From positions 1,178,001 through 1,242,000 of the forward strand of contig NZ_JBFRBH010000001.1 in NCBI RefSeq assembly GCF_040932485.1: 64,000 nt of DNA. Reading direction: 5' to 3'. Below the pieces are notes generated by a model. That model did not search any database. It had not been told where the DNA came from and worked only from the letters and a program-made list of their open reading frames with translations. A program made the position numbers and the translations under genes. The stretch comes from Gymnodinialimonas sp. 202GB13-11. GTDB lineage: Bacteria > Pseudomonadota > Alphaproteobacteria > Rhodobacterales > Rhodobacteraceae. Below, one piece after another: positions 19,978-35,395 of this stretch; within the stretch, counting starts at the first letter, position 1, and each line of letters opens with the position of its first letter.

Positions 19978-20023
19978 CCGCTTGCCGGAGTGGCAAAGGA
20001 TTTGTTACAGCCCGCGTCGGTTC

Positions 20024-20099
20024 GGGTGGTTAGCTCAGTTGGTAGAGCGTCTCGTTTACACCGAGGATGTCGGGGGTTCGAGCCCCTCACCACCCACCA
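20024..20099 (+). tRNA. tRNA-Val (anticodon TAC)
   Basis: Acceptor GGGTGGT pairs with ACCACCC; D-arm TAGCTCAGTTGGTAGAGC; anticodon stem TCTCG/CGAGG with loop TTTACAC gives TAC (reads GTA); T-arm GGGGGTTCGAGCCCC. CCA is encoded. Confidence 0.97.
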
Positions 20100-20264
20100 C
20101 CTTCTCCTCTGAAGAGCGAATAAGGGTGTTTTAGCAGGCAGACGTGTTTGCAAATGAGCCCTCCTTTCCGAACCCGATCATCGATACGACACGCGCATTG
20201 TTGACCCGCGCAAGGCGTTGCTGTCACAGTCGGTTCAACGCGCAAAAAGAACGGGTTATCCAGC

Positions 20265-20639
20265 ATGTCAGACCAAGGCCCTCCACCGATCATGTCGCCC
20301 AGGCAAGGCGATCCACTGCAGCCTGCGATCATCATTTACATTCTCATGGGTGTTGGCATTTTTGTGCCCTTCACCGCTTTGGCCGGTGTGGTTTACGCCT
20401 ATGTGGAGCGCGGCAAGGATCCGGTGCTTGATACGCACCTGTCCTTCCTGATCCGGACATTCTGGTGGGGTTTTGTGTGGATCATCGCGGGCTTCATTCT
20501 GGCCTTTGTCCTGATTGGCTTTCTGATCTGGATTGCATGGATCGTCTGGCTTGCCGTTCGGATCATCACGGGGATCCAGCTGGCGCAAAAGCAGCAGCCG
20601 ATTCAGGGCGTAGAAGTGTTCGGCATGAAAGCTGTCTGA
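20265..20639 (+). CDS. DUF4870-like membrane protein
   Basis: 124 residues with three or four hydrophobic segments (PAIIIYILMGVGIFVPFTAL, then FVWIIAGFILAFVLIGFLIW) and the DUF4870-style central VERGKDPVLDTHLSFLIRTF. The family is small integral membrane proteins of unknown role, often Tic20-like in shape. The N-terminus is Pro/Gln-rich. The ATG at 20265 follows a GTTATCCAGC stretch with no strong ribosome site. Confidence 0.78.
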   Translation: MSDQGPPPIMSPRQGDPLQPAIIIYILMGVGIFVPFTALAGVVYAYVERGKDPVLDTHLSFLIRTFWWGFVWIIAGFILAFVLIGFLIWIAWIVWLAVRIITGIQLAQKQQPIQGVEVFGMKAV

Positions 20640-20731
20640 GCGAGAGCGCACAGAAACGGTTTGGATTCCGGGAATTGGCGCGATCCTGCAACGGGGCTAA
20701 CTACGTTGAACACGTAATGAGGAATTGACCC

Positions 20732-21670
20732 ATGAGCTGGAACCCCGCCCTCGACCCCGATTGCCCGACCGGTGACGATGTGGATGCGATCGAGACCGTT
20801 ATTGTGCCGCGCGCCCGTGACTTGGGCGATTTCGAAGTCCGCCGCGCCTTGCCCGCGCCTAAGCGGCAGATGGTGGGGCCGTTCATCTTCTTCGATCAGA
20901 TGGGACCGGCGGAGTTCATCACGGGGCAGGGCGTGGATATCCGCCCGCATCCCCATATCGGCTTGTCGACCGTGACGTACCTTTATGAGGGCAAGTTTCA
21001 CCACCGCGACAGCCTTGGCACCGATCAATGGATCGAACCGGGCGCGGTGAACCTGATGACGGCGGGCCACGGGATCACCCATTCGGAGCGCATCGACGGT
21101 GAGATGTTGAAACAGCCCTACCGGCTGGCGGGCATTCAGACGTGGATCGCTTTGCCGAAGGACGCTGAAGACAATGCGCCCGATTTCGTTCATGCGGCCA
21201 AGGCAGACTTGCCGTTTCTGGAAGGCGAAGGGAAGGAACTGCGCCTGATCCTCGGCACCGCTTATGGCGAGGCCGCGCCGGTCGCCACCCCGTCCGAGAT
21301 GTTCTACGCCGACGCCGTATTGCGGCCTGGGGCCAAGCTGCCCATGCCGGACGACCATGAGGATCGTGGGGCCTATGTGGTGCAGGGGGCCGTTACCATT
21401 GCGGGTCAGACCTTTGAGAAGGGCCAGATGATGGTGTTCCGGCCCGGGGACCGGGTTTCCATGCAGGCCGGCGATCAGGGCGCGCGCGTAATGATCCTTG
21501 GGGGTGAAACGCTGGAAGGGCCGCGTCATATCTGGTGGAACTTCGTGGCCTCCTCGAAAGAGCGCATCGAAGAGGCGAAAGAGGCTTGGCGGCAAGGCGA
21601 TTGGCAACATGGCCGCTTCCAACTGCCACCGACCGATGATGGCGAGTTCATACCGCTGCCAGACAGGTGA
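20732..21670 (+). CDS. Pirin family protein
   Basis: 312 residues, bicupin fold. Iron-ligand region is visible: RPHPHIGLSTVTYLYEG, then HHRDSLG and the TAGHGITHSER segment. Bacterial pirins act as quercetinases or as redox-sensitive modulators (for example of pyruvate dehydrogenase); which applies here is not clear. A GAGGAATTG ribosome site precedes the ATG. Confidence 0.93.
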   Translation: MSWNPALDPDCPTGDDVDAIETVIVPRARDLGDFEVRRALPAPKRQMVGPFIFFDQMGPAEFITGQGVDIRPHPHIGLSTVTYLYEGKFHHRDSLGTDQWIEPGAVNLMTAGHGITHSERIDGEMLKQPYRLAGIQTWIALPKDAEDNAPDFVHAAKADLPFLEGEGKELRLILGTAYGEAAPVATPSEMFYADAVLRPGAKLPMPDDHEDRGAYVVQGAVTIAGQTFEKGQMMVFRPGDRVSMQAGDQGARVMILGGETLEGPRHIWWNFVASSKERIEEAKEAWRQGDWQHGRFQLPPTDDGEFIPLPDR

Positions 21671-21730
21671 CAGCCCCGCGCCGCGCCCTTAGGGTCAGCG
21701 TGTTGGCAGAAGCAATGGCCTGAGGGCGCT

Positions 21731-22558
21731 TTGAAAGCATATCCGTTTTTCGTTTTGGTTTGCGCGCTTGGGTTGGTAGGCTCTGAAGGCATGGCCTTCT
21801 CGGCTGAGGCCTGTGCCGAGAATTATATCGCTGATGATTTGCCGGAAGATGCGCGCGCGACGGCTTTGCCGGAGTACTTCGTGGAGCCCGGCCAGCTTGG
21901 CAGCCCCTTGATCTGTACGCTGGTGCCGAGTGAGGTTTACGGCCCGATGATTCAGGTCTCAGCCGCCATTGCGGACGACCCGAATACCGCCTTCGTTCAG
22001 TACTTTCCGGACAACGTGCAGATCCTGCGCACCGATGGCGAGGGCGCAGGTTTGGTCCTGTCGGCCTGTGGTCCGATCCCGCAAGACCTGCCGCCGGAGC
22101 GCAACCCCGGCGGGTTTTGGTGCCGGATCGATGTCTCGGTCGGGCGCGGCGTCGTGTTCGATCTGGAGTATGATGCTGAGGGGGCGCTGGCCTGGCTGAA
22201 CTTCGAGGTTTCGGCGCTGGACACCGGGATATTGGCCAATTCGACGCTTGCCCCGGTTCTGGGAGAGACCGCGCCGAATGATATTCGAGCAGGCCTGTTT
22301 CTGGATGGATCCGACACGACCTTCCTGATGCGACATGCGCAGGCGGCTGATGTGTTCCGAATGGTTGAGCTGCAATCCATCATCGACCTTTACCGTGCGC
22401 AGCGCGATACGCCACAGGCCATGACGATTGTGATTGAAACCGGCGAGCCTGAAACTGGCCCTTTTGCCCAGATCGACCTGCCAGCGCGCTTGTTGTCGGA
22501 GATCATGGCGGAGTTGGCTTTGTTGGAGGACCTCGTTCGCACCCATCGCGGATTGTAA
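21731..22558 (+). CDS. Secreted hypothetical protein
   Basis: 275 residues with a signal peptide (PFFVLVCALGLVGSEGMAF) cleaved near SAEA. It has Cys in EACAENY, LICTLVP, VLSACGPIP and FWCRID, suggesting two disulfides. No family recognised. The start is a TTG with GAGGG four bases before it. Its end lies 62 bases before the GNAT gene. Confidence 0.7.
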   Translation: MKAYPFFVLVCALGLVGSEGMAFSAEACAENYIADDLPEDARATALPEYFVEPGQLGSPLICTLVPSEVYGPMIQVSAAIADDPNTAFVQYFPDNVQILRTDGEGAGLVLSACGPIPQDLPPERNPGGFWCRIDVSVGRGVVFDLEYDAEGALAWLNFEVSALDTGILANSTLAPVLGETAPNDIRAGLFLDGSDTTFLMRHAQAADVFRMVELQSIIDLYRAQRDTPQAMTIVIETGEPETGPFAQIDLPARLLSEIMAELALLEDLVRTHRGL

Positions 22559-22620
22559 CGCCGTCTCTTGCGCTTGGCCGGTGGGCCATGCACCGTCCGC
22601 CTATGTCACCGTCCCTTGTC

Positions 22621-23139
22621 ATGCATATTCGCCCGGCTCTGCCGCAGGACCTGCCCGAGATCGCGCAGTTGCATGAGGCGAACTGGCGTCGGGACTATGC
22701 GGGGGTTCTGCCCGAATATGCGTTGGGCGCGCATCTGACCGACTACATGGCGCGCAAGTGGCACAACGGCGCGTTGCGTGACCGGCGGTGCCTTGTGGCC
22801 CGCGACGGGGCTGGCACTTTGTTGGGGTTCGCGGCGATGCTGGATTCGGGACCTGACGAGCACGCCTTTCTCGATAACCTCCATGTGGCCCCGGCATTCC
22901 GCGCGCATGGGATCGGTCGGGCGTTGATGTCTTCTGTTGCGGTTCTGGCCATTCCCGGCCCGCTTTCGCTGGAGGTGCTATGCGCCAACATGCAGGCCCG
23001 CGCGATCTACAAGGCATGGGGCGGCGAGGAGAGCGCGGAGTTTGCCGATGACATTCTTGGCGTCTCAGTGCCTGCCGTGACGGTTACATGGCGCGATACG
23101 GTCTGGCTGGCCGACCGGCTGAGCGGGGCAGATGTATGA
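22621..23139 (+). CDS. GNAT-family N-acetyltransferase
   Basis: 172 residues. The acetyl-CoA fold is visible: N-terminal IRPALPQDLPEIAQLHEANW, the beta-4 strand FLDNLHVAPAFRAHGIGRAL (motif A pyrophosphate loop), and LEVLCANMQARAIYKAWG (motif B). The acceptor is unknown. The start is uncertain since three ATGs lie within 34 bases and none has a clear ribosome site; 22621 fits the family. The stop overlaps the start of the transporter gene (ATGA). Confidence 0.85.
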   Translation: MHIRPALPQDLPEIAQLHEANWRRDYAGVLPEYALGAHLTDYMARKWHNGALRDRRCLVARDGAGTLLGFAAMLDSGPDEHAFLDNLHVAPAFRAHGIGRALMSSVAVLAIPGPLSLEVLCANMQARAIYKAWGGEESAEFADDILGVSVPAVTVTWRDTVWLADRLSGADV

Positions 23140-24104
23140 GCAGCGGGACGCCAACGCGCGCCATCGTGTTGATCCTGATCGGCATGGCCTGCATTTCGGT
23201 CAACGATACGCTGATCAAGCTGCTGTCGGGCGGCTATCCGCTGCACCAAATGGTCTTCATCCGCTCGGTCATCGGGCTGTGCTTTACCGCCGTGATCCTT
23301 ATGGGCGAGGGCGGGCTAGCCTTGCTGAAAACGGACCAGCCGGGGCTACACCTTGTGCGAGCGATCCTGATCGTGATTGCGAACATGACCTTCTTTGCGG
23401 CTTTGGCAGTTATGCCGCTGGGTGTTGCGACAGCGCTGTTCTTCGTCGCTCCCCTCTTCATCACTTTGCTCGCGATCCCTGTTCTGGGGGAGCGTGTGGG
23501 CATACATCGTTTAACGGCCCTTTTGGTGGGCTTTGCCGGTGTGGGCGTCATGATGCTGCCGTCCAGCGACTGGGGGGACGTGCCGCCGGGCGCGCTGTTT
23601 TTGCCGGTGATTGCGGCGGCCTGCTACGCAGGTATGCAGGTGATGACTCGCAAACTGGGCGCGAAGTCGGCGGCGTCGGCCATGGCGATCTACATTCAGG
23701 TGGCGTTTATCGGTGTCTCGATCCTGTTCTGGATCAGTGTGGGCGACGGACGGCTCGCGGATCAGGTACAAAATGAGAGCCTTGTTTTCCTTCTCCGCGC
23801 ATGGATCTGGCCCGCGTCAGACGACATCTGGAAGTTCGCGATCCTTGGCCTGATGTCTGGGATGATCGGCTATTGCCTCAGCCAGGCCTATCGCTTGGGG
23901 GATGCGGCGACGGTTGCTTCTTATGAATATGCTGCACTACCCATGGCGATTGTCTTGGGATGGGTGGTCTTCGGTGAACGCCCCGGCTGGGTGATGCTTG
24001 CAGGCACCGCCCTGATCGCGGGCGCGGGCCTCTATGTTTTCGCCCGCGAACGGCAGCGCGCGGGTGTTGGGCCAGCAGCGGAACGCCCTATTCGGCGGGG
24101 GTAG
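23136..24104 (+). CDS. EamA/DMT-family transporter
   Basis: 322 residues with ten predicted membrane helices in two EamA repeats (first beginning VLILIGMACISVNDTLIK, second FLPVIAAACYAGMQVMTR). Drug/metabolite transporter superfamily, inner membrane; likely exporter of amino acids or small metabolites, substrate unknown. Translationally coupled to the GNAT gene by a 4-base overlap, so the two may act on the same compound. Confidence 0.9.
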   Translation: MSSGTPTRAIVLILIGMACISVNDTLIKLLSGGYPLHQMVFIRSVIGLCFTAVILMGEGGLALLKTDQPGLHLVRAILIVIANMTFFAALAVMPLGVATALFFVAPLFITLLAIPVLGERVGIHRLTALLVGFAGVGVMMLPSSDWGDVPPGALFLPVIAAACYAGMQVMTRKLGAKSAASAMAIYIQVAFIGVSILFWISVGDGRLADQVQNESLVFLLRAWIWPASDDIWKFAILGLMSGMIGYCLSQAYRLGDAATVASYEYAALPMAIVLGWVVFGERPGWVMLAGTALIAGAGLYVFARERQRAGVGPAAERPIRRG

Positions 24105-24224
24105 ATGAGCCTGGCAAGACGCGGGCTGCGGAAAAGCCGCAAATCCAAGCGACGGACCGCTTGACGGGGCAGGCGGCTAGCCCTAAACCGCCCCTCACGC
24201 CGGGTTGCCCGGTGTAAAGGGTGA

Positions 24225-24301
24225 GCGGTTGTAGCTCAGTTGGTTAGAGTACCGGCCTGTCACGCCGGGGGTCGCGGGTTCGAGCCCCGTCAACCGCGCC
24301 A
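24225..24301 (+). tRNA. tRNA-Asp (anticodon GTC), integration site of an islet
   Basis: Acceptor GCGGTTG pairs with CAACCGC; anticodon stem CCGGC/GCCGG with loop CTGTCAC gives GTC; CCA encoded. Its last bases are repeated downstream at 24452-24475 and 26376-26390, marking it as the target of site-specific integration. The tRNA itself is intact. Confidence 0.97.
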
Positions 24302-24302
24302 C
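24288..24302 (+). repeat. Left attachment-like repeat (tRNA-Asp 3' end)
   Basis: CGTCAACCGCGCCAC inside the tRNA-Asp T-arm/acceptor end; identical to 26376-26390. Confidence 0.75.
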
Positions 24303-24315
24303 CACCCTCAAAAAA

Positions 24316-24350
24316 GCCTGTAATCCCAAGGGGTTACAGGCTTTTTTTTT
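24316..24350 (+). terminator. Rho-independent terminator after tRNA-Asp
   Basis: GCCTGTAA...TTACAGGC, stem extended by CCC/GGG, followed by nine or more T. It closes the tRNA transcript and also insulates the islet from it. Confidence 0.9.
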
Positions 24351-24357
24351 GTCTCGA

Positions 24358-24379
24358 GGGGCCATTTGGGGGGCCAATG
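24358..24379 (+). repeat. GGGGCCATTT / GGGGGGCCAATG repeats, left side of islet
   Basis: Two adjacent copies of a G-run plus CCA(T/A)T motif. Two more in the same orientation occur at 26214-26247 near the right edge. Confidence 0.5.
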
Positions 24380-24451
24380 CTCTTGTCAAACGGCCTAAAA
24401 TGGCATTCGTGATGCGCCTTAACCGTCACCAACCAACCAGAATCGTCATAA

Positions 24452-24475
24452 GTTCGAGCCCGCTCAACCGCGCCA
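24452..24475 (+). repeat. Second copy of the tRNA-Asp 3' end
   Basis: 24 bases matching tRNA-Asp 24278-24301 at 22 of 24 positions (two adjacent differences in the T-arm), including CTCAACCGCGCCA. It is too short to be a tRNA gene. It most likely marks an earlier or neighbouring integration. Confidence 0.75.
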
Positions 24476-24662
24476 TACTTTGCCGGATTGATTCTCTAAG
24501 GTGCTCTATGAACGGTGAAACGACCCGATTGCGTCGTGGAGGAAACTCTGTCGCGCTGCACGTTTTTCGTTTGCTCAGGCGCTGCTGCGCAGGCGTATCA
24601 GCGTGGTCATCAGAGCAACACTTTTTACGGGGACGGTTTGTCTGAAGCTACAAAGGATAAAG

Positions 24663-26168
24663 ATGAAACGAGTTATCGACTTGGATGGTGCAGCAGCCCG
24701 GGCTTACCTAGAACGGCCAGAATGCTACTTTCGATCGGACTTTCCACCATACATTAGCTTTGGATCCATTCTTTCTGACGTATCGGCTGCTCTATCGGGC
24801 AGGCCCTACACCGATTTTCAGAAAGCAAAACCACACCGACCTGTCGACACGGCTGGCGTAAACTACGAGCTGTTGAGCACCAAAGACGGACGTTTCGCAT
24901 GGCGACCATTTGAGCTCATCCACCCAGCCATCTACATCACTTTGGTTCAGCTAATCTGTGAGGAATCGAACTGGTCGCTTCTTCAAGAGCGTTTCAATGA
25001 GCTACAGACTGGAGTTGTTGAGTGCACGGGCTTCCCTATGGCGTCGTCCACATCGACTAGTCATGATGCGTTGCAGGTTAGAAATTGGTGGTTGCGCTAC
25101 GAACAACGGTCGCTCGCTCTATCACTTGAATACACGCACCTACTGAAAACTGACGTCTCCAACTGCTACGCTTCATTGTATACGCACAGCATTCCTTGGG
25201 CGCTTCACGGGTATGATTTCGCAAAGCAACATCAAACCGACAGGACACTTCTAGGTAATCAAATAGACTTCCATATCAGGAACAGCCGCTACGGACAGAC
25301 GAACGGGATTACTCAAGGTTCCGTTCTGATGGACGTTATTGCCGAGCTCGTGTTGGCTTATGTGGACCACCTGATAACCAATCAATTGAAGGGTGAAACA
25401 GACTTCCATATCCTGAGATACCGTGACGACTACAGCGTCTTCACATGTAGTGACGAGCTGGCCACCAAGATCGTGCGGGTTATCAGCGACTGTCTAAGGA
25501 AGGTGGGGATGCAGCTTGGCGGTGCGAAGACATCTGTCAGCACCAACATCGTTGAGGGGGCAATCAAATCTGAGAAACTGGCCGGTATACAGCTTGAGGA
25601 CATGGATATCACCCAAGCGAAGTCGGTGCAGAAGCAGCTTCTACGTTTGCACTCATTTGCCCGGAAGTATCCCAACACAGGTGCTGTCAAACGGTTGGCT
25701 GACCATGCGTTTCAGAAAATTATGACCGTCACGGTAGCGCCTGACGATCTTGTAGTCCAAGTGGCAATAGTCTGTGACATTGCGGTAGTGTCACCGAGCG
25801 CGTTCCCAGCGTTGTCCGGAATACTCGCGAAGTTAATTTCGTTCGCGCCAGAGCAAGACCGACAACTTCTCTGGAGCAAAGTCATCCAAAAAATGCAGCG
25901 AATACCTCACAACGGGCATCTTGAGGTATGGTTGCAACGGATAACCAAAGCCAACGGCGTTGATCTAAATTTTTCAAGCCTCGAACCGATTTGCCAGATC
26001 GTAGACGGTCAAGCAGCAGACCTGTGGGACAATAGCTGGATCGACAATCATGTGTTGGTGAAAGCACTTGATGCTTCCAAGATCGTTGTTGGCGTCCCGG
26101 AGGAACTTGATCCTGTCCCCGCTATTGAGGAGATCGCGCTCTTCCGCGAATTCGCTGAGTTCTCCTAG
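24663..26168 (+). CDS. Reverse transcriptase of the Abi/UG (defence-associated) type
   Basis: 501 residues. Reverse transcriptase core: motif A LLKTDVSNCYASLYTHSIPW with Asp164, motif B TNGITQGSVLMD at about 213-224, motif C YRDD with Asp255/Asp256, and motif D-like VGMQLGGAKT to residue 290. All three catalytic Asp are present, so it should be active. Residues ~300-501 are helical and match no domain I can name. The YTHSIPWAL segment after motif A is typical of Abi-like and UG-class defence reverse transcriptases, and unlike group II introns (no X/maturase or HNH) or retrons (no VTG box region seen). The start has AAAGGA five bases upstream. Composition is AT-richer than neighbours. Subtype (for example a DRT class) cannot be fixed by eye. 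Confidence 0.85.
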   Translation: MKRVIDLDGAAARAYLERPECYFRSDFPPYISFGSILSDVSAALSGRPYTDFQKAKPHRPVDTAGVNYELLSTKDGRFAWRPFELIHPAIYITLVQLICEESNWSLLQERFNELQTGVVECTGFPMASSTSTSHDALQVRNWWLRYEQRSLALSLEYTHLLKTDVSNCYASLYTHSIPWALHGYDFAKQHQTDRTLLGNQIDFHIRNSRYGQTNGITQGSVLMDVIAELVLAYVDHLITNQLKGETDFHILRYRDDYSVFTCSDELATKIVRVISDCLRKVGMQLGGAKTSVSTNIVEGAIKSEKLAGIQLEDMDITQAKSVQKQLLRLHSFARKYPNTGAVKRLADHAFQKIMTVTVAPDDLVVQVAIVCDIAVVSPSAFPALSGILAKLISFAPEQDRQLLWSKVIQKMQRIPHNGHLEVWLQRITKANGVDLNFSSLEPICQIVDGQAADLWDNSWIDNHVLVKALDASKIVVGVPEELDPVPAIEEIALFREFAEFS

Positions 26169-26213
26169 GCGTCGGATTCGCCGTCGGAGGTGTGATTTTA
26201 CGGACGCGAGAAT

Positions 26214-26247
26214 GGGGGGCCATTTTTCAACTCAAGGGGGGCCATTT
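26214..26247 (+). repeat. Two GGGGGGCCATTT repeats, right side of islet
   Basis: GGGGGGCCATTTTT at 26214-26227 and GGGGGGCCATTT at 26236-26247, separated by CAACTCAA. Spaced repeats of this kind occur at ends of some transposons (IS21-family ends carry repeated motifs), but no transposase gene is here. Confidence 0.5.
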
Positions 26248-26375
26248 CATAATAAACGAAACCGTCATCAATCAGCATAGATCGACGAGAAACGACAGTG
26301 ATCTTCTTTACTTTATTGATGTTTAGCTGATCAAACAGCATTCATCGGCGTGAGACGTCACTATTTCCATCGCGC

Positions 26376-26390
26376 GTCAACCGCGCCACT
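26376..26390 (+). repeat. Right attachment-like repeat
   Basis: CGTCAACCGCGCCAC, identical to the end of tRNA-Asp (24288-24302). Sequence upstream of it no longer resembles the tRNA, as expected for an attR. Confidence 0.75.
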
Positions 26391-26413
26391 TTCCTCTCAA
26401 AGGAGCGACGAAA

Positions 26414-27091
26414 ATGGTCCGATCCCTGTTGGCCTCGTTTCTTGCTTTGGGTCTGGCAAGTTCTGCCCATGCAGAGGATGCACCACCCATTCTGGACCTG
26501 CCGTTTGATCTTGCGATGATGGTTGGGGGCAGCGCCGACGCGCTGATGGACCGGCTGACAGAGCATTTCCCGGACCACCGGATCGCGCGCCGCAACCTGA
26601 TCCCAGCGGTCGAGGATGAAGCGTTTTGGATGATCGATGGCACGCTATTAGTGTCCCAAGACCCGCTCAGCGCCTTTGGGCTGGCCTGTACGCAATACGG
26701 GCGTTCAACGCTGGATTTCTTTGCTGAGAACCGTGATCTGAGCTTTGAGGCCGAAACCGTACTGCACGAGGCTGATATTCGTATCGATGACGGCGCGGTC
26801 TGGCCCGGTGCGGCGTCTGCAGTACTCAATTGCCGATACGTCCTTGCCGCGCCAACCCACGAGGTGGACATCGCATTGGATGAATCTCTCGTCGACGCCA
26901 CCCTTGCGGACTGGTTTGAAACGCGCGTTTGGCAAGATGACCCGCTGGGGCTCGGCTCGGATATTCGGCAGGCCGATGCAAGCGGGGCTGTTCCCTTGGA
27001 TGGGGTCTTGGTCGAGTCGGCGACGGTTTCGCTCAGCGCAACCAACAGCTCAGTGGCGATGCGCAGTTTCGCCCTTGCGGGCGGTGTTTGA
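26414..27091 (+). CDS. Secreted protein, first of three tandem paralogues
   Basis: 225 residues with signal peptide (SLLASFLALGLASSAHA). It shares with the next two genes: a Cys in CTQYGRSTLDFF, a VWPGAASAVLNCRY segment with the second Cys, and a C-terminal RSFALAGGV. The two Cys probably form a disulfide. No known domain. Its ATG has AAGGAG eight bases upstream, and that leader directly follows the right repeat of the islet. The islet has therefore displaced whatever promoter lay between tRNA-Asp and this gene. Confidence 0.75.
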   Translation: MVRSLLASFLALGLASSAHAEDAPPILDLPFDLAMMVGGSADALMDRLTEHFPDHRIARRNLIPAVEDEAFWMIDGTLLVSQDPLSAFGLACTQYGRSTLDFFAENRDLSFEAETVLHEADIRIDDGAVWPGAASAVLNCRYVLAAPTHEVDIALDESLVDATLADWFETRVWQDDPLGLGSDIRQADASGAVPLDGVLVESATVSLSATNSSVAMRSFALAGGV

Positions 27092-27132
27092 CCCGTTGTG
27101 AGCATGACGGCAGCAGCGTAGCGTTTGCGCCG

Positions 27133-27816
27133 ATGAAACGCGCTCTGGTTGTCCTTGCTCTGGCCGCTTTGCACGGCCTCCCGCTCCACGCGCAGCCCTT
27201 GGAGTTCCCTTTGGCCGACGTGCTCAGCCTTGGATCCCATGCCTATGCCCGGTCGGACGATTTCAGGGAGCATCTGGAAGCGGTCTTGCCCGATGCTCGG
27301 TTCGAGCCGGAGCCAGACATCACGGCAGAAGAAGATCCGTTTCGATGGGCGCTCGGCGGCACGTTTGGCGGGCAGGGGGCCTCACCCCGGCCCGGTGCGC
27401 TGTTCGGCTGCGCGCGATACGGGTTGGCGACCCGCGATCTGTTCGCCGAACACGGCTTCGCGCGGCCCGAGACGTTTGGCTTGATGGGCGCGGTCCTTCC
27501 CTTGGCCGATGATGCGGAGGTCTGGCCAGAGGCCGCAGTGGCGCGTCTGCATTGCACCTTCATCTGGGACGACGCTGAGACGGTCGCGATCCTGCTCCAG
27601 GCCGAAGCGGTGACCGGTTTGAGTGCGGTCTTCTCTCATGTGGAAAGCGAAAGCGGCGGGCTGTTTTTGCGGCTGTTGGGAGAGGATGGGTTCAGGCTAT
27701 CCGGGTGGAACGAGGCGGGAGATACTATGGTCTGGGTCGAGTCGGGCGATGTGATCCTGACGAACGGGCACCAACAGGTCTCGTTCCGGGCATATCTGAT
27801 TGGAGGAGCGGTTTGA
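27133..27816 (+). CDS. Secreted protein, second of three tandem paralogues
   Basis: 227 residues with signal peptide (MKRALVVLALAALHGLPLHA). Common pattern: CARYGLATRDLF, EVWPEAAVARLHCTF and the C-terminal FRAYLIGGAV. Divergent from its neighbours elsewhere, so the duplication is old. The frame extends upstream to 27088 but the signal peptide sets the start. Its stop codon shares one base with the start of the third gene. Confidence 0.75.
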   Translation: MKRALVVLALAALHGLPLHAQPLEFPLADVLSLGSHAYARSDDFREHLEAVLPDARFEPEPDITAEEDPFRWALGGTFGGQGASPRPGALFGCARYGLATRDLFAEHGFARPETFGLMGAVLPLADDAEVWPEAAVARLHCTFIWDDAETVAILLQAEAVTGLSAVFSHVESESGGLFLRLLGEDGFRLSGWNEAGDTMVWVESGDVILTNGHQQVSFRAYLIGGAV

Positions 27817-28505
27817 TGAAGACGTGGACAACAGCGCTGTTTCTATGGGGCGTTGCCTCCGGCCCCGCCGACGCGCAGGTCGATCCGCGCCCGTTGCTGG
27901 ACCTGATCTTCGAAGCCGGGCAATCCGCCGAAGGCTTTGCCGATGCGGTCCACGCCGTCATGCCCGCCCCCGACGCACATCCCAGGGTCAATTCGGCCTG
28001 GCAGGACGTGCTCGACGCCGACCCTATGCATTTCGACGTCTTCACCACCGAGGCGGACCTCGGCCCCGGCATTGCAACCGGCCATCTGCGCTGTCTGCGC
28101 GTTGGACTTGCAACGCGGGATGCGCTTTTGTCTGGCGATCTGTCGAGGTTGGAACAGCAGAATGTCCAGCACGAGGCGCTGATCTATCCTGGGGTTCTGG
28201 AAAACTGGCCAGAGGATGCCATCGGCAGCGTCTTCTGCGCCAATACGATCATGGGACCGGAGCCGCGCCCTGAATACGATGTCACAATCGCGGTCGGGTG
28301 GTTGAGCGCACGGCTCGATGACGTGCGCGGCGTCGACGCGCCGATTGAACGGGAATATCCGATAGATGGCATTCTGACGGATATCGAGGCATCGGGCGCC
28401 TATGACGCGAACGGTGTGCGGCTGGTCCATGTCGGGCTGTTTCAGATGGAGGGCGGAACCCGTCAGCTCGACGTGCAGGCGTATATCCTGGCAGGGACCA
28501 GTTAG
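27816..28505 (+). CDS. Secreted protein, third of three tandem paralogues
   Basis: 229 residues with signal peptide (WTTALFLWGVASGPADAQ). Common pattern: CLRVGLATRDALL, NWPEDAIGSVFCAN and C-terminal DVQAYILAGTS. GGAGG lies nine bases before the ATG and the gene overlaps the preceding stop by one base, so the pair is translated together. Function unknown. Confidence 0.75.
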   Translation: MKTWTTALFLWGVASGPADAQVDPRPLLDLIFEAGQSAEGFADAVHAVMPAPDAHPRVNSAWQDVLDADPMHFDVFTTEADLGPGIATGHLRCLRVGLATRDALLSGDLSRLEQQNVQHEALIYPGVLENWPEDAIGSVFCANTIMGPEPRPEYDVTIAVGWLSARLDDVRGVDAPIEREYPIDGILTDIEASGAYDANGVRLVHVGLFQMEGGTRQLDVQAYILAGTS

Positions 28506-28512
28506 GTGCGCC

Positions 28513-29655
28513 TTAGCCTTTGTGGATCCAGCCACCACCAAAAATGCGGGTGCCGGTCGGGTCGTAGAACACGCAGGCCTGGCCTGGGCTCACGCCTTCT
28601 TCGGCGACCACCAGCTCCACTTCCGCTTCCGTGGCCGAAAGCGGCCGGATCGTCGCCCCGCGGGGCGGGCGGGTGGAGCGGATTTTGACGTCCAATTCCC
28701 ACACGTTACGGCTGTCGAAAGGTGCGTCGCCGAGCCAGTTGATTTCGCGCACTGGGACCGTGCGGGTGCTGAGCGCCTCTTTCGGACCGACGATCACGCG
28801 GCGTGTGTCGGGGTCGAGTTTGACCACGTAAAGCGGATCGGCCAGCCCCCCGATGCCAAGGCCGCGCCGCTGACCAATAGTGTAGTGGATCACGCCGCGA
28901 TGTTCGGCCAGCACGTTACCATCCATATCCACGATCTCGCCGGGATCGGCCGCACCGGGGCGCAGCTTTTCGATCACCGCGGCATAATCGCCGTTTGGCA
29001 CGAAACAGATGTCCTGACTGTCGGGTTTGTCGGCCACGCTCAGCCCGTATTTTGCAGCCAGCGCCCGTGTCTCGGCTTTTGACGCCAGATGACCCAGCGG
29101 GAAGCGCAGGTAATCGAGCTGTTCTTGCGTGGTGGAGAACAGGAAATAGCTTTGGTCGCGCGCCGCATCGGCGGCCGAATGAAGCTCAGCCTTTTGGTCG
29201 CCCATCATCCGCTGGATATAATGCCCCGTTGCCATGCAATCGGCGTCTAGGTCTTTGGCCGTGCCAAGCAGGTCTTTGAATTTCACCCGCTCATTGCAGC
29301 GGATGCACGGCACGGGTGTGGCACCGGCCAGATAGCTGTCGGCGAATTCGTCGATCACGGCGTCTTTGAAGACGTTTTCGTAGTCCAGCACGTAATGCGG
29401 GAAGCCCATGGTTTCGGCCACACGCGCGGCGTCATGGATGTCACGCCCTGCGCAGCACGCGCCTTTCTTTGCCAGGGCCGCGCCATGGTCATAAAGCTGC
29501 AAGGTGACGCCCACGACGTCATAGCCTTCCTCTGCCAACATTGCGGCCACAACGGACGAATCCACACCGCCCGACATCGCGACCACAACGCGCGTGTCTT
29601 GCGGGGCTTTTGCGAAGCCAAGGGAATTGACGCCATCGGCGCGGTCGAGTGCCAT
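28513..29655 (-). CDS. mnmA: tRNA-specific 2-thiouridylase
   Basis: Inserts sulfur at C2 of U34 in tRNA-Lys, -Glu and -Gln, using ATP and sulfur from the IscS relay. 380 residues, normal length. The PP-loop is [15 protein letters not shown]; the two catalytic Cys are in [11 protein letters not shown] and [13 protein letters not shown]. The start is [10 protein letters not shown]; the longer open frame upstream is antisense to sciP. Divergent from sciP by about 130 bases. Confidence 0.96.
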
Positions 29656-29788
29656 GGGAATGTGCCTTATCGGAAGCGTGCCGCAGGCATATAGGAAAAA
29701 GCCGAGACATCTCAAGGCGTGCTTACTTGATCTTAAGCCTCGTCGGTCACAGTGCCCGTGACCCAAGAACAAGACCTTTGAGGCCGAG

Positions 29789-30064
29789 ATGTACATTCGA
29801 AAAATCCAGGGGCCCCATGCGGTGACCCTGCCAGATGGCTCAACCATGACCCGATCAGATCTGCCGTCGGCCAAGACCACAAGGTGGGTGGCCAGCCGGA
29901 AAGCGGCGGTCGTTCATGCCGTGGATCACGGCCTGATGACGTCGGAAGAAGCGATTCGCACCTATTCGCTATCGAAAGAGGAATTGGAAAGCTGGCGAAT
30001 GGCGGTTTCAAAACACGGAGAAAAAGCCTTGAAAACAACGGCTCTCCAGAAGTTTCGCGAATAA
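29789..30064 (+). CDS. sciP: CtrA inhibitor SciP (DUF1153)
   Basis: 91 residues. In Caulobacter SciP binds CtrA (and DNA) in late cell cycle and blocks CtrA-activated promoters, and it is a Lon substrate. Signature: [20 protein letters not shown], then [20 protein letters not shown] and the helix-turn-helix [18 protein letters not shown]. It lies 110 bases upstream of ctrA on the same strand. Whether the inhibitor role holds in Rhodobacterales is inferred. Confidence 0.93.
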
Positions 30065-30119
30065 AGGACAAAAGAAAAGTGATCTTTTGGAGAAATAGCG
30101 CCGAGCCGGTAACGTGTAA

Positions 30120-30127
30120 TTAACCAT
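30120..30127 (+). promoter_or_regulatory. CtrA-type half site before ctrA
   Basis: TTAACCAT, the element found at many CtrA-regulated promoters of Rhodobacterales, 48 bases before the ctrA start. A second TTAAC lies at 30147-30151. Consistent with CtrA autoregulation. Confidence 0.5.
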
Positions 30128-30174
30128 TTCAACGAAGAGTGGAGTTAACAAACGAGATCAATTGGAGAGAGCTG

Positions 30175-30888
30175 ATGCGGGTTCTGCTAGTCGAAGACGA
30201 TCCTACCACATCGCGCAGCATCGAAATGATGCTGAAACACGCGAACCTGAATGTCTATTCCACCGACCTCGGGGAAGAGGGGATGGATCTGGCAAAGCTC
30301 TACGACTACGACATCATCCTTCTGGATCTGAACCTGCCGGACGTGTCTGGCCACGAGGTTCTGCGCCATCTGCGCACCGCTCGGGTGGAAACGCCCATCC
30401 TGATCCTCTCTGGCCTCGATGACCCCGAAAACAAGCTGAAGGGTTTTGGCTTCGGCGCAGACGATTACCTGACCAAACCATTCCACCGCGAAGAGTTGGT
30501 GGCCCGCATCCATGCCATCATCCGCCGCTCCAAAGGCCATGCGCAATCGGTGATCGAAACCGGACGCATTTCCGTCAATCTCGATGCAAAGACCGTTGAT
30601 GTCGAAGGGGCGCCAGTGCACCTGACGGGCAAGGAATACCAAATGCTCGAACTGCTTTCGCTCCGTAAAGGAACGACGCTGACGAAAGAGATGTTTTTGA
30701 ACCATCTTTATGGCGGCATGGACGAGCCTGAGCTCAAAATCATCGACGTGTTCATCTGCAAGTTGCGCAAGAAGCTGTCTGAGGCAACGGGCGGCGACAC
30801 GTATATCGAAACGGTGTGGGGCCGCGGATATGTGTTGCGCGATCCCGTGCCACAGACCCAGCAGATGGACATGGCCGCGACCGGCTGA
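30175..30888 (+). CDS. ctrA: Cell-cycle response regulator CtrA
   Basis: 237 residues. OmpR-type regulator: receiver domain MRVLLVEDD with phosphoacceptor Asp51 ([10 protein letters not shown]), Thr/Lys in [10 protein letters not shown] and LTKPF, and winged helix [20 protein letters not shown] with [11 protein letters not shown]. In Rhodobacterales CtrA is usually not essential and controls flagella, gene transfer agent, quorum-linked and competence-like genes. The start MRVLLVEDD is preceded by GGAGAGAGCTG. Confidence 0.97.
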
Positions 30889-30916
30889 ACTGACTTCCCT
30901 GCAGTGCTACCGAAAA

Positions 30917-30948
30917 ACGGCCCTGGGCATTTGCCGAGGGTCGTCTTT
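30917..30948 (+). terminator. Hairpin after ctrA
   Basis: ACGGCCCT pairs with AGGGTCGT with an inner GGC/GCC, followed by TCTTTC. T-run is weak, so termination is probable but not certain. Confidence 0.55.
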
Positions 30949-31029
30949 CGTTGAGTACATCGCGAGCAGCGTCCCGTCACTCTGGACCATCGCCGCCCTG
31001 CGACCTACACCGATGGGTGGAGGCATTGA

Positions 31030-35395
<4,366 letters not shown>

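Follow-up and report, generated by a model that had tools for sequence, protein, structure and literature searches.

The window analysed here, a whole stretch of 64,000 nucleotides (64 kb) from Gymnodinialimonas sp. 202GB13-11, contains an islet, some 2.1 kb long and AT-richer, between a tRNA-Asp gene and a conserved downstream gene. This islet is probably the remnant of an integrative element, decayed, accreted and CIME-like, which would have lost its integrase while keeping its att sites, its arm sites and one defence gene. The gene encodes a reverse transcriptase (RT) that belongs, on its profile and structure matches and over its full length, to the Abi-P2 family; the enzyme itself is already known. 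New here are GGGG(G)CCATTT repeats at either end of the islet and, at 24452-24475, an internal third copy of the tRNA end.

Location and borders of the islet

The features of the islet and its borders are listed below in window positions, all on the + strand.

24225-24301, + strand: tRNA-Asp (GTC), whose 3' end is the left repeat
24288-24302, + strand: left copy of the exact 15-bp repeat CGTCAACCGCGCCAC
24302-24309, + strand: bases CCACCCTC following tRNA-Asp
24310-24347, + strand: hairpin and T run, terminator-like
24358-24376, + strand: left arm-like repeats GGGGCCATTTGGGGGGCCA
24452-24475, + strand: internal third copy of the tRNA-Asp 3' end, 22/24 (92%), a probable accretion junction
24663-26168, + strand: predicted Abi-P2 family reverse transcriptase / protein-primed DNA polymerase, 501 aa, with YRDD at residues 253-256 and Tyr30
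26215-26247, + strand: right arm-like repeats, two copies of GGGGGCCATTT (26215-26225 and 26237-26247)
26373-26388, + strand: right copy of the tRNA-Asp end (attR), the last 16 bases of tRNA-Asp
26414-27091, + strand: native downstream gene, without Pfam match

An earlier note on this DNA had proposed a foreign islet integrated at tRNA-Asp, which is borne out by the low GC content, the repeats and the empty sites of congeners. The interior (24310-26372) has a GC content of 50.3%, compared with a mean of 61.1% (sd 1.7, minimum 55.7%) for 231 overlapping, equally long segments from the rest of the 64 kb. The right copy of the exact 15-bp repeat is located at 26375-26389. Between the last 30 nt of the tRNA-Asp and the islet, the longest exact match is 14 nt; among 1000 sequences simulated for 24302-26413 with a first-order Markov model, none reached 14, and exact matches to these 30 nt were 12 nt long at most. 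Both terminal copies of the tRNA end, attL (24278-24301) and attR, are retained and presumably represent integrase sites. The window tRNA-Asp is the sole tRNA-Asp detected in the genome, and four other resembling places correspond to tRNA-Arg, tRNA-Met, tRNA-Trp and tRNA-His.

In the genus sample, tRNA-Asp was matched in all 13 genomes. Ten of the 12 congeners contain, on a single contig, the islet-free order EamA – tRNA-Asp – tRNA-Asp – mnmA, in some cases with small genes before mnmA, and in these ten the distance between the tandem tRNA-Asp copies is only about 30 to 490 bases. For the remaining two congeners, G004 and G006, the assembly ends at a tRNA copy and the flanks match. The RT gene was not found in any of the 12 congeners. 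Empty sites at tRNA-Asp in relatives, as anticipated in the earlier note, are thus what is seen, and a check for the same islet with matching composition in all relatives came out negative. Congeners have two tandem tRNA-Asp genes, whereas this genome has one. Since the flanking genes match on both sides, which is a firmer anchor than short agreements of bases, the islet appears to stand where the remainder of the spacer and the second tRNA-Asp would be, only the last 16 bases of the latter being left.

The exact left border depends on how the eight bases CCACCCTC are read. Compared with the bases after the first tRNA-Asp copy of congeners, they agree at 8 (G006), 7 (G004) and 6 (G002) positions, and at 0-3 in the nine others. 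In view of this agreement they are perhaps host DNA, with foreign DNA then starting at about 24310; flank agreements of 6-8 bases are short, and the eight could also be element DNA. On the right, the repeat is followed by CTTTCC, the same six bases as after the second tRNA-Asp in G002 and G012 (0-5 agreeing bases in the remaining congeners). The downstream gene has a diverged counterpart after a tRNA-Asp in G004, with 65% DNA identity.

The region 26414-28502 encodes three consecutive small proteins of 225, 227 and 229 aa. These are diverged paralogues (E=1e-12 between the first and second, E=6e-7 between the second and third), and none of the three has a Pfam match. Genes related to this trio are present between tRNA-Asp and mnmA in several congeners.

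The Abi-P2 reverse transcriptase and its relatives

The RT is the sole islet ORF longer than 100 aa and contains an RT domain (Pfam RVT_1, E=5e-12). Similarity to integrases stays at chance level in the islet, so that the single cargo gene and the missing integrase described earlier are both confirmed. The listed ORF starts with GTG at 24603; the coding start adopted is the ATG at 24663, which matches the starts of relatives. The PADLOC AbiP2 profile PDLC03744 matches with E=1.4e-171, covering residues 1-496 of 501 and profile positions 4-485 of 489. The runner-up PADLOC profile is Drt6 with E=1.3e-52, and a search of NCBIfam gave below-cut-off matches only. The structure of Abi-P2 (PDB 7r08) matches the RT at E=6e-66. 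An undescribed RT family is ruled out by the AbiP2 profile, which scores over the full length, and the idea of an undescribed defence unit, put forward in the earlier note, is not supported, as the RT belongs by these full-length matches to a known family.

AbiK and Abi-P2 are reported to be protein-primed, template-independent polymerases, with Abi-P2 forming a trimer and requiring Tyr61 for priming (PMC9508834). Tyr30 of the RT aligns with this Tyr61 in a gapless alignment in which query residue 1 corresponds to chain residue 32; the equivalence presumes that the chain numbering of 7r08 is the same as in PMC9508834. Both the catalytic motif YRDD and Tyr30 are invariant across 13 aligned sequences, namely the window RT and 12 of 15 relatives. 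The predicted model of the RT has a mean pLDDT of 78.4 and predicted C-terminal helices. A fold search with this model placed six 7r08 chains on top (best E=1.4e-22). With a whole-chain TM score of 0.46-0.50 and an rmsd of about 26 Å, the model is taken to back the family and not the placement of domains. Protection against T5 by Abi-P2 is reported in PMC11077055, which calls the mechanism of cell protection by Abi RTs unclear. From its family, the window RT is predicted to have anti-phage activity as well.

An RT or retron dependent on a conserved non-coding RNA was considered and rejected, as far as described RNA families and shared flanks go. In the region 23500-27500, Rfam gave no match at E<=1 beyond the tRNA and three matches under the gathering score, and where the parts of the islet on either side of the RT were compared with other RT loci, some of these taken over shorter stretches, the matches were no better than chance.

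In a family sample of 394 genomes, with roughly one genome for each genus, an RT at E<=1e-30 is present in six, this genome included, and three of them are only 38-41% identical. Over the full length, the RT shares 69-78% identity with nine relatives and 37-39% with three more. No close relative encoded by viral contigs was found. On a Paracoccus plasmid, an RT with 80% identity is flanked on both sides by transposase genes.

In total, 15 other RT loci were inspected. A similarity search with 13 queries found a tyrosine recombinase in the flanks examined at 5 of the 15, in L036 and L038 more than 5 kb away. In locus L035, the RT is flanked by a serine resolvase gene on either side. Lone Abi-P2 relatives adjoin core-type genes, namely an ammonium transporter (L037), Hsp70/DnaK (L043) and a ThyX-type thymidylate synthase (L195); in L192, the relative lies between a Glu/Leu-type dehydrogenase and an FAD oxidoreductase. 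Direct repeats across the RT at the loci of relatives were absent above 14 nt in one comparison and only chance-like in another.

Several of these loci have features of their own. In L195 (7046-8584), the frame of an Abi-P2-like RT with 38% identity overlaps the end of the ThyX-type gene (Pfam Thy1) and is followed by an ArsC-family gene; a repeat across this RT was looked for and not found. In L041 (525-2811) and L036 (9563-11933), a Drt8 RT and its PD-DEXK partner adjoin the Abi-P2 gene in differing orientation, placing two defence RT systems side by side. L042 (3253-5816) contains two consecutive integrase-like genes, 23% identical, directly upstream of the Abi-P2 gene. One of the pair has Arm-DNA-bind_3 and Phage_integrase domains, and the other has a sub-cut-off arm-domain match only. 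L042 and L043 also have about 130 bases in common (76%) immediately upstream of their RT.

Arm-like repeats and the search for an integrase

The window has four copies of the motif GGGGCCATTT, all of them on the + strand, and three of the four lie in the non-coding ends of the islet. The 19-base left arm pattern is present in five viral contigs, in three of them inside ORFs. In the other two (L185 and L186), it lies beside a tyrosine integrase identified by Pfam and a tRNA-like attachment core. In L185, the tyrosine integrase gene is directly followed by the 19-base pattern, a hairpin terminator similar to that of the islet, the tRNA-like core and then a further GGGGGCCA. The left side of the islet has tRNA, hairpin and repeats in the same order. 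In L186, the 19-base pattern has an Arm-DNA-bind_3 integrase on one side and a tRNA-like 3' end on the other. The two cores are tRNA-like in our reading; ARAGORN detected no complete tRNA in them, and Rfam gave no tRNA and only sub-threshold tmRNA matches. Because such repeats lie beside an integrase and a tRNA-like core in two of the five viral contigs, the GGGG(G)CCATTT repeats of the islet look like putative arm-type sites of an integrase.

Outside viral contigs, the exact 19-base pattern is rare. It was found in 2 of 388 genomes of the family sample, namely this one and one in which it lies inside an ORF, without an integrase neighbour, and in 1 of 385 genomes of the class sample, which is this genome. 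With 2-3 mismatches, it occurs at 17 further places in this genome. The right-arm pattern has no match in viral contigs. A combined pattern of att and arms matched 5 of 394 family genomes including this one; the other four, judged by eye from the matched strings only, look unrelated and were rejected as further instances of the same att and arms.

A partial tRNA-end pattern matched in 46 of 248 family genomes. Among 29 other loci with this pattern (30 of the 50 listed places, including the window), none has a complete tRNA-Asp end in the stretch; the pattern misses att copies that match the tRNA over a longer length. The att2 variant has no match in viral contigs. In 76 viral contigs with a tRNA-Asp end, the arm motif is absent from the 400 bases after this end. 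The tRNA-Asp end looks like a common attachment site. In 52 of these 76 contigs (L104-L179, with a 20-base tRNA-Asp end), fewer than 60 of the 75 tRNA positions match, and many therefore seem to carry the end alone.

The search for an integrase remnant within the islet gave nothing convincing, the best matches being short pieces with E=0.03 over 29 aa and then 0.12. The ORFs of window positions 20000-32000 have no similarity match to 13 integrases. In the host, ten integrase matches were found. Around these (1.5 kb on each side, wider for six), only scattered single motifs are present, and no helper integrase with the islet repeats was seen in the host genome. At the integrase match at 1818043, two exact GGGGGCCA lie about 1 kb apart, both inside ORFs. 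In plasmids, the right side of the islet has no match and the left side has 212, none of which covers 80% of the query; among the 20 matches listed, only the tRNA part is matched. A phage search with the left side alone gave no match.

Origin of the islet and comparison with known systems

In the preferred explanation, one or two site-specific integrative elements would have entered at the tandem tRNA-Asp genes via a tyrosine integrase. One of the two tRNA-Asp genes of the host may have been lost through this integration, or through later recombination between the near-identical tRNA ends. The integrase and all else would have been lost, leaving the left attachment side with terminator hairpin and arm sites, an old internal att junction, the Abi-P2 gene, the right arm sites and attR. 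Both the integrase origin and this order of events are what we infer. The cargo would most likely still be functional alone, as an anti-phage abortive-infection enzyme. It is predicted to be a DNA polymerase of RT fold that would prime on its own tyrosine and produce untemplated DNA as an oligomer upon phage infection.

CIMEs are cis-mobilizable elements that kept their att sites and lost their genes for integration and transfer, and their tandem accretion is described in PMC5704250. The third, internal att copy of the islet fits such accretion, in which a second element enters at the site of a decayed one. Mobilisation by a neighbouring or related element may occur, but no candidate helper was seen in this genome, and the islet is therefore labelled CIME-like, not CIME.

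The arm-like repeats and tRNA-end copies kept at both ends are also what a minimal non-autonomous mobile defence cassette would have. Its att and arm sites would still work, and the integrases of passing phages or islands would excise the one-gene Abi-P2 cassette and move it in trans, from tRNA-Asp to tRNA-Asp. The intact RT, with every other gene gone, and the position of such repeats on either side of the tRNA-like core in L185 agree with this explanation, which is nevertheless considered unlikely. The 19-base pattern recurs in the 388 family genomes only inside one ORF and in no other of the 385 class genomes, matches are lacking in plasmids (none on the right side, none over 80% of the query on the left) and in phages for the left side, and a helper integrase with such repeats was not seen in the host. 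In the ten congeners with a contiguous locus, no other cargo was seen between the same repeats, and a third att copy inside the islet points to decay and accretion more than to an active unit. For these reasons, the mobile cassette favoured by the earlier note is regarded as no more than a minor possibility.

A decayed remnant is also preferred to an islet of junk with an RT that is non-functional or has a role outside defence. Promoter-like sites in the islet are at the level of shuffled sequences (2 against 1.9 expected), and neither is located upstream of the RT on its strand. With an intact frame of 501 aa, retained catalytic and priming residues and full-length identity to nine relatives of the 69-78% type (and to three more at the lower level), such an islet appears rather improbable. 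A lone Abi-P2 gene might instead have arrived via homologous recombination or general DNA uptake, the tRNA-end copies then stemming from an older, unrelated remnant. The relatives that stand alone by core-type genes (L037, L043, L192 and L195), the lack of direct repeats across the RT at relatives' loci beyond 14 nt or chance, and a tyrosine recombinase in the flanks of just 5 of 15 loci would be in line with this route. Against it, the window RT lies between tRNA-end copies and arm-like repeats that match across the two sides, and the site of relatives is empty; lone arrival is accordingly given little credence.

The islet contributes an example from Alphaproteobacteria in which the ends of a tRNA-targeted element enclose an Abi-P2 gene, at a site that is empty in sister species, and is a concrete test case for whether integrase-less one-gene defence islets can be moved by the integrases of other elements. 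In the literature on CIMEs, tRNA islets, integrase-less islets and Abi-P2, as far as titles and the beginnings of abstracts go, a tRNA islet with Abi-P2 as its one gene was not encountered, which is not a claim of absence. In PMC11476347, no mention of tRNA-Asp or integrase-less elements was found.

Among known systems, the Abi-P2 proteins of P2-like prophages (P2-EC30/EC58, PDB 7r08) resemble the window RT in full-length similarity, YRDD and the aligned priming tyrosine. The E. coli phage forms share about 30% identity with it and lie in a prophage variable region, whereas the window RT lies on a chromosomal tRNA islet. Other defence-associated RTs (Drt4, Drt6, Drt8 and others) have a similar RT core, but score much weaker, and the window RT differs from them in having neither a match to an ncRNA family nor a partner gene. 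CIMEs are comparable in their att copies at both ends and an internal one, in the absence of an integrase; the islet differs in its size of about 2.1 kb with one gene only, and no functional mobilising element was found for it. Elements that use tRNA genes and tyrosine integrases of the Arm-DNA-bind_3 type, such as L186, have the same kind of target, the 3' end of a tRNA. Repeats of the GGGGGCCA type lie beside the integrase of L186 and likewise occur in the islet. Where L186-type elements have their integrase, however, the islet has the RT in its place.
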